DNA of 64,000 bases. Source: Nocardioides bizhenqiangii. GTDB taxonomy: Bacteria > Actinomycetota > Actinomycetes > Propionibacteriales > Nocardioidaceae. Both the position numbers and the translations under genes were made by a program. The stretch is from the NCBI RefSeq assembly GCF_034661235.1, contig NZ_CP141059.1, positions 4,482,894 through 4,546,893 on the forward strand, given 5' to 3'. The notes beneath the pieces were generated by a model, which searched no databases, was not told where the DNA came from, and saw only the letters and a list, made by a program, of their open reading frames with translations. This document shows positions 1,693 to 45,851 of this stretch, piece by piece. The first letter of the stretch is position 1, and each line of letters starts with the position of its first letter.

Positions 1693-2813
1693 CAGAGGAC
1701 GACGACCGAGCGCAGGACGTCGCCGTGGTGCATCCGCTCGAACGCCGCCTCCACGTCACTGAGCCCGATCTCCTCGCTGACGAAGGCGTCGAGATCGAGC
1801 CGACCCTGCAGGTAGAGGTCGACCAACATGGGGAAGTCGCGGCTGGGCAGGCAGTCGCCGTACCAGCTGGACTTCAGCGCGCCGCCGCGGCCGAACACGT
1901 CGATGAGCGGGATGTCGGGGACCTTCATGTCCGGCGTCGGTACGCCGACCAGGACCAGGGTGCCGGCAAGGTCGCGGGCGTAGAACGCTTGTTGCCAGGT
2001 CTCCGGGCGCCCGACCGCCTCGACGACCACGTCGGCGCCGTCGGCGCCCTCGTAGGTCTCCGCGCAGATCCGCTTGATCTCCGTGACCGGGTCCAGCCCG
2101 GACAGGGGCGAGGAGTCGATGGTGTGGGTAGCGCCCATCTTCTTCGCTGTCTTCAGCTTCTTGGCGTCGATGTCGACCGCGATGATCGGGCTCGCGCCCG
2201 CCAGCGCTGCGCCGGCGATGGCTGCGACGCCTACGCCGCCGCAGCCGATGACCGCGATGCTGCGACCCCGGGTCACGGCGCCGGTGTTGATCGCAGCACC
2301 GATGCCGGCCATCACGCCGCACCCGAGCAGGCCCACGGCGGCGGGTCGGGCCGCCGGGTCGACCTTCGTGCACTGGCCCGCAGCGACCAGCGTCTTCTCC
2401 GCGAACGCACCGATGCCCAGCGCCGGCGACAGCTCCGTACCGGCGTCCGGTCCCTCGGCCAGTGTCATCCTCTGCTGCGCGTTGTGGGTCGCGAAGCAGT
2501 AGTGGAGATCGCCGCGCTTGCAGGCGCGGCACTCGGCGCACACCGCGCGCCAGTTGAGGACGACGAAGTCGCCCGGCGCCACACCCGTGACGTCCGGGCC
2601 GACGGCCTCGACGATCCCCGAGGCCTCGTGTCCCAGCAGGAAGGGGAACTCGTCGTTGATGCCGCCCTCGCGGTAGTGCAGGTCGGTGTGGCAGACCCCG
2701 CAGGTCAGCACCTTCACCACCGCCTCGCCCGGGCCCGGGTCCGGGACGTTGATGGTCACGATCTCGACCGGGGCTCCCTTTGCGCGGGCGACGACCGCCC
2801 GGACCTGCTGCAT
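1692..2813 (-). CDS. mscR: S-(hydroxymethyl)mycothiol dehydrogenase
   Basis: Zinc-dependent medium-chain alcohol dehydrogenase of 373 residues. Visible are the catalytic zinc motif CGVCHTD near residue 38, GHEASGIVE near residue 60, the structural zinc cluster [15 protein letters not shown] near 93-107, and the NAD-binding GCGGVG near 192. Sequence pattern matches the mycothiol-dependent formaldehyde dehydrogenase subfamily, which oxidises the formaldehyde-mycothiol adduct (and can reduce S-nitrosomycothiol). Mycothiol is the actinobacterial thiol, and ino1 at 41.6 kb feeds its inositol. The downstream hydrolase overlaps by one base. ATG at 2813 was chosen as the start; the length is normal for the family. 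Confidence 0.9.
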
Positions 2814-2945
2814 GCGACTGGTCTCCTCTGTGGCTGACGACGAACCATCGAGTGCATCAACCTAGGCGCAACCGACTGGTCGGCGCGACGGTCGGCCGGC
2901 CATCAGCCGCGTCGGACTGTCCGTCGCTTCTGCTTGGCTGGCGCC

Positions 2946-3497
2946 ATGTTCGCCGATCTGCCGCCCTTCGCGGCCTGGCGCTTCGTCGACGCGGTCGACG
3001 GGTTCGAGGTGATGTACGCCGAGCCGGGCCGACTGCGCGGGCACACCTCCGCCGTCGAGGACGGCGAGGCCTACGCGGTCACCTACGAGATCACGCTGGA
3101 CGACCGCTGGCGGACCCGCCGGGTGCAGGTCTCGTCCGACACCGTGGCCGGCACCCGCACGACCGTGCTGGTCTCCGACGGGGACGGCCGGTGGACCGTG
3201 GAGGGCCACCCTGCGCCGCACCTCGACGGCCTCGTCGACGTCGACCTCGAGGCATCGGCATGCACGAACACCCTGCCCATCCACCGGTTGCGGCTGCCCG
3301 CCGACGAGGTGGTCACCGCGTCCGCGGTCTACGTCCAGGCCCTCGACCTCACGGCGCGGCGCCTCGACCAGACCTACCGGCGGCTCGACGACCACCGGTT
3401 CGACTACACCTCGGAGGGCGACTTCCGAGCCGTGCTCACATACGACGATGCCGGGCTGGTCCTCGACTATCCCGGCATCGCCGTTCGGTTCGCCTAG
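2946..3497 (+). CDS. Putative glycolipid-binding family protein (DUF1089-like)
   Basis: Protein of 183 residues, cytoplasmic in appearance (no signal peptide or membrane segment). The spaced motifs DLEASACTNTLPIHRL and YVQALDLTARRLDQTYRR resemble the actinobacterial family called putative glycolipid-binding (PF06475). Function is not established for the family as far as I know. I chose ATG 2946 over the TTG at 2934 because homologous starts normally begin a few residues before the PPFAAWR-type stretch. It is a single gene that converges with the small membrane protein gene at 3525. Confidence 0.65.
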   Translation: MFADLPPFAAWRFVDAVDGFEVMYAEPGRLRGHTSAVEDGEAYAVTYEITLDDRWRTRRVQVSSDTVAGTRTTVLVSDGDGRWTVEGHPAPHLDGLVDVDLEASACTNTLPIHRLRLPADEVVTASAVYVQALDLTARRLDQTYRRLDDHRFDYTSEGDFRAVLTYDDAGLVLDYPGIAVRFA

Positions 3498-45029: not shown

Positions 45030-45089
45030 GGCCCGGAGTCTACGGAGCGCCGCTCGCGCGCCGCGAAGGAGGCGCCGCCGCGGGATCGT

Positions 45090-45834
45090 CCGCGCTTCGC
45101 GCGGGTCTTTCCGCCGCTTCGCGGCGGGTTGGGTTTGGTGGTTGTCGCCTGGTGGGTGTGGCGGGCGGTGCGGTGGCTTCCGGTGCGGGACGGGACCCCG
45201 AGCGGGCTGCAAACCGTGGCCTGCCGGCCTGGATCGACAGGGGCCTGGCGGCCCAGGTCATGGGGACAGTTTGCTGAGGTTCGCGGGTGGATAGCCGAGT
45301 AGCAGCCGGCAGGCCCCGACTTGCCCGCCCGGGGCCCCGCCCCGCACCGGCCACCGCACCGCCCGCCACTCCCACGGCTCAGTGTGGTTCGGGGTGGGTG
45401 GGTTTGCCTGTGTCCGAGGCCGCTCGAGTGGGAGGGGCCGACCGGCCGCGTGGTTGGTCCGTCCCTCCCAAGGCGCCGACCCCGGATGACATGGGTGAAC
45501 CTCATCCACCCCGAACCCCGGAGCCGTGGGAGTGGCGGGCGCGGCCGACTTGGAGCGGTGCGGGGCGTGGGACCCGGCGGGCAAGTCGGGGCCTGCCGGC
45601 CTCTGCTGATCGCCCCCGTCGCAGGAAGCTCATCCAGCTTTCCCATGACACGGGACATCCAGCCCGTGTCACATCCAGGCCGGCAGGCCACGGTTTGCAG
45701 CCCGTCGGGGCCAATGCCCCGCACCGCCCCCAACCGGCCGCGCCCGCCACACCCACCCAGCGACAACCCACCAACCCAACCCGCGCGAAGCGCGGAACCT
45801 CCCACCAACCCAACCCGCGCGAAGCGCGGAACCC
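45090..45834. repeat. Nested inverted-repeat element with four alternating ~80 bp modules
   Basis: Fills the gap between divergent cca and the DUF6049-type gene and is centred near 45452. Modules lie at 45151-45230 (+), 45304-45377 (-), 45524-45602 (+) and 45677-45757 (-). Exact pairings include 31 bases between 45204-45234 and 45673-45703, 25 bases between 45305-45329 and 45576-45600, and 21 bases between 45360-45380 and 45521-45541. Thus modules 1/2 and 3/4 can each form a long hairpin with a 73-75 base loop, and the two hairpins are mirror images. A small inner inverted repeat (TGGGAGGGGCCGACC region, 45429-45470) marks the centre. The outer ends carry short CGCG-stem hairpins. No transposase is present. 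Confidence 0.8.
45767..45833 (+). repeat. 33-base tandem duplication at the element edge
   Basis: Two exact copies (45767-45799 and 45801-45833), each ending in the hairpin CCGCGCGAAGCGCGG and separated by one base. On the left edge of the element, 45091-45141 shows two diverged versions of the same hairpin (CGCGCTTCGCGCG, then CCGCCGCTTCGCGGCGG). Confidence 0.8.
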
Positions 45835-45851
45835 CGCACTACCCTCGGGGC

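Follow-up and report, generated by a model that had tools for sequence, protein, structure and literature searches.

Positions 45090-45834 of the window, the whole 64,000-nt stretch of Nocardioides bizhenqiangii DNA analysed here, are probably one copy of a young, non-autonomous and non-coding element that is mobile, or at least dispersing, within a small Nocardioides clade. Its two large hairpins are homologous mirror images, set on either side of a middle hairpin, and each end carries a pair of mini-hairpins with a GCGNAGC loop. The idea of a non-autonomous mobile element came from a sequence-only reading of the region, and it is supported by seven copies in the genome, by relatives in which five of the seven sites are empty and by shorter derivatives with the same termini in Nocardioides silvaticus. 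The element has dispersed, has inserted relative to close relatives, has termini in common with its shorter derivatives and keeps its hairpin build. The clade keeps seven nested 0.7-kb palindromes, most of them seemingly gained recently, even though bacteria are usually considered to maintain long palindromes poorly.

Architecture of the element

The extent of the window copy (45090-45834) follows from the copy count in the genome and from the lack of an element here in N. silvaticus and the congeners G119, G050 and G173. The whole region is a nested palindrome, and the two large mirror-image hairpins of the first description were recovered. The left large hairpin consists of arm 1 (45152-45234, + strand; inverted repeats I2, I5 and I6) and arm 2 (45305-45380, - strand; I3, I5, I6 and I8), which enclose a loop region (45235-45304, + strand) that contains GTCATGGG and is the more variable part among the copies. 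In the right large hairpin, arm 3 (45521-45602, + strand; I1, I3 and I8) and arm 4 (45673-45756, - strand; I1, I2 and I9) enclose a loop region (45603-45672, - strand) with CCCATGAC, which is GTCATGGG reversed, so that the proposed relatedness of the loops, each in the sense of its own unit, is borne out. The exact repeats of 31, 25 and 21 nt were likewise found, at 45204-45234 / 45673-45703, 45305-45329 / 45576-45600 and 45360-45380 / 45521-45541. The four arms follow no single simple pairing: some outer parts pair best within their hairpin (for example 45152-45177 / 45350-45375, 96%), and inner parts pair best across the hairpins, where the 31-nt and 25-nt exact pairs are the best matches.

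To this description we add a third hairpin between the two large ones (45386-45517; inverted repeat I13), with arms at 45386-45405 / 45498-45517. It has a related centre in N. silvaticus, and is so nearly palindromic that it did not discriminate between orientations of the element at the sites common to both species. Terminal inverted repeats, a feature of MITEs, are present at 45124-45167 / 45741-45784 (44 nt, 89%). Outside the large hairpins lie the end hairpins with CGCG stems, again as first described. On the left, the outer (45090-45104) and inner (45111-45127) hairpins both have a GCGAAGC loop on the - strand; the outer one is matched in other copies by a hairpin with other stems, and the inner one is terminator-like on the + strand in a strict scan. 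On the right, the inner hairpin (45781-45795) has its GCGAAGC loop on the + strand, and the outer one (45815-45829) lies, in the window copy, within a 34-nt tandem duplication (D1; 45767-45800 / 45801-45834). The elements measure ~600-750 bp, with a G+C content of 0.73-0.78 in the nine copies computed.

The element was also said to fill the whole regulatory gap between its neighbours. It does lie within the 822-bp gap between the two start codons (45030-45851), but the putative -10 boxes of both divergent genes are outside it and, judged by eye, are kept in relatives. The strict scan accepted no promoter at the window site, inside the element or beside it (window copy only). A weak match to the MIR1437 microRNA model at 45154-45373 on the - strand scored 53 bits against a gathering score of 168; this identity was rejected and the hit taken as a generic long-hairpin match.

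Seven dispersed copies without a common reading frame

A search for further copies returned seven full ones, the window copy among them, in the complete one-contig 4.55-Mb chromosome of N. bizhenqiangii (G000), at about 0.39, 0.87, 2.69, 2.74, 3.32, 4.08 and 4.53 Mb; the window lies at the contig end. All are intergenic, with neighbours of unrelated function, in divergent, tandem and convergent settings (names are taken from Pfam families; for polA, the Pfam check was done on the N. silvaticus orthologue). The window copy lies between divergent genes for a CCA-type nucleotidyltransferase and a DUF6049 protein, and copy 7 between divergent ABC exporter and ABC-2 permease genes. Convergent pairs flank copy 2 (EEP-type phosphatase and glf) and the copy between polA and the gene of a small protein without a Pfam match, while the tandem settings are isochorismate-synthase-type gene/terC, ubiE/nuoA and cation efflux/E1 dehydrogenase.

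The seven copies are 4-11% apart, with a core identity of 93.5-96.4% among six of them and of 88.8-91.7% between the window copy and those six. Since the flanking genes polA and isochorismate-synthase type have only 85-90% DNA identity between N. bizhenqiangii and N. silvaticus, the higher core identity among the six copies is as expected if they spread recently. The borders are not sharp, because two of the seven copies (L011 and L015) have ~50 bp of similar sequence past their ends, in the left flanks outside the outer hairpin with L011 reversed (a local score of 26, where shuffles reached at most 18); from the letters, these copies look as if they had been copied along with their flank.

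In agreement with the claim that the region encodes no protein, the copies differ by 72 gaps, 64 of which have a length that three does not divide, and they therefore have no reading frame in common. A decayed protein gene was the alternative named as refuting the mobile-element idea; open frames do run across the region, as is usual at high G+C, but the gap lengths and a repeat structure far beyond shuffles make such an origin, or one as the remnant of an insertion sequence with coding parts, extremely improbable.

Filled and empty sites in relatives

For the five N. bizhenqiangii sites that are not occupied in N. silvaticus, the flanks were located and aligned in N. silvaticus, G119, G173 and G050. 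N. silvaticus has a short spacer without an element at all five (that is, at 5/7 of the N. bizhenqiangii sites), and G119, G050 and G173 are mostly empty there too; at the window site, the start codons are ~62 bp apart in G050 versus 822 bp in N. bizhenqiangii. The exceptions are ubiE-nuoA in G050, which holds ~0.5 kb of other sequence, the E1-dehydrogenase site, across which G173 gave no alignment, and the EEP-glf site, which is not empty in G119. No clear target site duplication was seen by eye at the five sites in comparison with the relatives, nor in the N. silvaticus flanks, and a few bases are often lost or altered at the insertion sites.

Two sites, behind polA and behind the isochorismate-synthase-type gene, are filled in both N. 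bizhenqiangii and N. silvaticus. On the 3' side of polA, the element is found in these two species only among the 29 genomes with a readable polA end (30 loci surveyed, one of them unreadable); G119 has no element there. The chance of two shared sites is ~2e-4 for 4000 equal spacers and ~3e-3 for 1000 usable ones, and this small chance calls either for common descent with strong homogenisation or for a preferred landing site. The two sites, which speak against mobility, fit common descent with gene conversion as well. Junction sequences at both differ between the species, which leans towards a preferred landing site over common descent.

The elements might instead have resided in these genomes for longer, with gene conversion keeping them alike and with recombination or replication template switching at hairpins, and not a transposase, as the main means of spread; they would perhaps be kept as two-way terminators or insulators. 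Such residents would account for the two common sites despite elements that are ~68% alike between the species where they align and 93-98% within N. silvaticus, for the EEP-glf site common to N. bizhenqiangii and G119, for the two copies that are alike past their ends, for the kept pairing and for the lack of a detected transposase or target duplication. Against this, N. silvaticus lacks the element at five of the seven N. bizhenqiangii sites, and congeners further away lack it at most of these too; the elements have defined termini in common with shorter derivatives; and sites between divergent promoters need no terminators. We consider residents of this kind unlikely and prefer recent dispersal of a mobile element.

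Related elements in other Nocardioides

Matches with E<=1e-8 among 215 congeners were confined to N. bizhenqiangii and N. silvaticus, that is, to 2 of the 191 genomes with >=90% completeness and <=5% contamination. Weaker congener matches (E 2e-8 to 1e-3; 37/39 and 74/76 genomes) cover short stretches only and were left out of the count of relatives. N. silvaticus CCTCC AB 2018079 (G063) has six full copies, including the query, besides a partial copy and four places with shorter elements. The full copies, of ~600 bp, are 93-98% identical to the query copy and ~68% identical to the N. bizhenqiangii elements over the parts that align. In the left and middle hairpins they are akin to the N. bizhenqiangii elements; the right one, though largely different in sequence, is again a hairpin.

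The full copies in N. silvaticus end in CGCTGCGC...GCGCAGCG, and the same termini are found on the shorter derivatives. The terminus pattern has 14 matches in this genome, of which 13 lie at full, partial or shorter elements and the last is, by eye, a further short derivative; a control pattern has 2. The four shorter places (L054-L057) have a 130-bp hairpin core in common between these termini, and L195, judged by eye, is still shorter; from their sequences, all five look like deletion or mosaic derivatives. At the right element end of L049 in N. silvaticus, an acetyltransferase gene seems to draw its last codons and stop from the terminal sequence, its open reading frame (2087-3115, read by eye) extending into the element.

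Two contigs of G119 end part-way through a diverged relative, the first located behind the EEP-type gene, the second behind glf; this corresponds to the site of copy 2. The EEP-side piece matches the N. bizhenqiangii elements at 62-65% over ~200 bp (E 2e-10 to 2e-9), and the glf-side piece matches the N. silvaticus elements at ~66% (E 5e-5 and 1e-3); the first 600 bases of 20 of the ~340 contigs gave one further weak match (69% over 81 nt, E 4e-4). Three congeners thus carry this nested-hairpin build, with fast sequence turnover. The family may extend further, because searches by sequence soon lose it and draft assemblies may be interrupted at the element, and draft genomes may under-count such elements, given that the G119 contigs end inside one. 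In wider genome contigs, the arm pattern was found in 23 stretches, six of them in N. silvaticus; the other 17 (in Streptomyces, Mycobacterium, Gemmatimonadota and others) are presumed to be chance. Viral contigs gave no matches, and plasmid and phage records none with the window copy or with an N. silvaticus copy.

Fold stability and kept pairing

The single-strand fold of 45090-45834 has an energy of -605 kcal/mol; 20 dinucleotide shuffles averaged -394, and none of them was as good (z -22.7). The other six N. bizhenqiangii copies gave z -23 to -45 (10 shuffles each), and two N. silvaticus copies were less extreme (z -9 and -12).

Pairing was followed in an alignment of 19 hairpin units, made up of seven left and seven right units from N. 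bizhenqiangii and units from five of the seven N. silvaticus copies (one of the two left out is the partial copy). Under a structure derived from these same 19 units, 98.4% of 930 cells pair, compared with 33-53% in slid versions. Between versions, two-sided changes occupy 65 cells versus 20.7 after shuffling (0/500 as high), and the covariation score is 0.239 versus 0.092 (0/500 as high). At 12 of 49, the pairs with a two-sided change do not clearly outnumber those in the shuffles (64/500 as high), and among the seven N. bizhenqiangii copies alone such changes are rare, at 3/1844 cells for local and 8/2124 for global pairing. Few independent events are involved, because the two-sided changes mostly separate three sequence groups.

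The very stable fold and the pairing kept by two-sided changes would suit a family of structured RNA genes that are transcribed and act in trans, the second possibility raised from the sequence. That suggestion accords with fold and pairing and less well with other findings: Rfam 15 has no family at gathering score in 18 element-bearing loci, and close species differ in which sites are occupied; for the most part, a filled site is not conserved between them. The end hairpins face inward, and the strict scan of the window copy found no internal promoter. The scarcity of two-sided changes among the seven copies and the unremarkable number of changed pairs also count against an RNA, and template-switch repair of palindromes could produce two-sided changes without selection and so keep the pairing too. 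Taken together, these points make an RNA gene family distinctly improbable.

Terminal hairpins, gene 3' ends and a possible mechanism

The seven copies have 14 ends, and each of these, read outward, has a stretch rich in C and A, an inner hairpin, a short link mostly rich in A and G and usually an outer hairpin. The stems differ among copies, and the loop GCGNAGC (N = A, C, G or T) stands on the outward-reading strand in 26 of the 28 hairpins (14/14 inner, 12/14 outer). DNA hairpins with GCGAAGC are unusually stable. Allowing <=2 mismatches, the terminal hairpin pattern has 13 matches in the N. bizhenqiangii genome, all at the seven elements. Read inward, the ends resemble intrinsic terminators in that a short run containing T comes after the hairpin, which suggests a terminator role; the strict terminator scan of the window copy accepted the left side alone.

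Gene 3' ends lie <=5 nt from an element end in 11 of the 16 cases examined. The distances, measured by eye, are 0, 1, 1, 4, 13, 15 and 20 nt in N. bizhenqiangii and 0, 0, 0, 1, 3, 3, 5, 23 and 47 nt in N. silvaticus; the count leaves out L051, L057, L195 and most second sides, and for L054, L055 and L056 the distances are those to putative stop codons. The window copy and copy 7, being situated between divergent genes, adjoin no gene 3' end.

A protein supplied in trans might recognise the hairpin ends and move the copies, without target duplication, into spacers, where they would often settle directly behind stop codons. Either the element would bring terminator-like ends to such places, or terminators would be its targets, and the inward-facing end hairpins could terminate transcription of the genes on either side and so render insertion harmless. 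No transposase with matching ends was found by a Y1 family profile search of N. bizhenqiangii and N. silvaticus or by a same-ends search for a partner insertion sequence, which in N. bizhenqiangii placed 13/13 matches at the elements and in the draft N. silvaticus genome all 14 at elements or the short derivative (control 2). The pairs of filled and empty sites offer a system for studying how hairpin DNA spreads and why it settles behind stop codons.

Comparison with known repeat families

Bacterial MITEs such as Correia/NEMIS, ERIC/RU-1 and RUP are described in PMC2229807 as <200 bp and A+T-rich. According to that source, they are non-coding, dispersed and mostly intergenic, with inverted-repeat ends and no transposase of their own, all of which applies to the present element, and they form stable stem-loops in transcripts, to which the predicted fold is comparable. 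The present element differs in its 0.6-0.75 kb, its 73-78% G+C, the absence of a visible target duplication and the partner insertion sequence that was not found. The Caulobacter CerM-associated intergenic repeats (CIR), again according to PMC2229807, have two long inverted-repeat arms with a linker, are intergenic and are of unclear mobility, features that recur in the present element. The arms and linker have a counterpart in our two large hairpins around a middle segment, but our element is much larger, its arms are mutually related in mirror image and its ends carry paired mini-hairpins. The conserved GANTC of CIR is missing, with 0 or 1 occurrence per copy at differing places.

REPs are units of 20-40 bp with a GTAG tag, and REPINs go with RAYT transposases (PMC3733652). 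Like these dispersed palindromic DNA hairpins, the present element is probably non-autonomous; it occurs, however, as few long copies and not as short free-standing units, the 13 terminal-hairpin matches being all at elements. The Y1 (RAYT) transposase family PF01797 was found in neither N. bizhenqiangii nor N. silvaticus, with 5 of 14 control genomes positive, and no conserved GTAG lies within 45 nt of the cut ends, where 2/7 copies have one GTAG/CTAC occurrence. The REPIN likeness in the strict sense was abandoned on these grounds and on the confinement of the terminal hairpin to the elements, and a REPIN/RAYT system was rejected for the lack of a Y1 transposase in the two genomes searched.

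The palindromes of Streptomyces telomeres are G+C-rich hairpins in close array, and the loops of some of them are similar; the present element is instead dispersed within the chromosome. It works like a non-autonomous mobile repeat and is CIR-like in its arm layout, without the size, composition and duplication features of MITEs or the transposase of REPINs. The best reading is of a non-autonomous and rapidly evolving mobile element, often lodged behind stop codons, that follows the logic of a MITE or CIR at a larger size, with high G+C and with ends of another kind. Searches of the literature, mostly outside subscription journals, returned no description of a nested-hairpin family and none of a miniature inverted-repeat element in Nocardioides, and the repeat looks undescribed. 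A novel mode of movement is a real possibility. More tentatively, it may belong to a new class of bacterial mobile elements, with GCGNAGC DNA mini-hairpins as ends, a re-used landing site behind stop codons (the terminators of genes), no target duplication, a hitherto unrecognised hairpin-reading enzyme and a sequence turnover so fast that only the nested-hairpin build is kept.

Other sequences behind polA

Two further congeners have other sequences behind polA. In G173, a different and, by eye, insertion-sequence-like sequence follows the stop codon (L111). G145 carries an unrelated complex palindrome at this place (L136:846-1497), which is part of a high-copy repeat of its own: a ~145-bp unit matches some 40 further places in that genome (56 matches listed), making G145 another Nocardioides with an unrelated high-copy palindromic repeat family.
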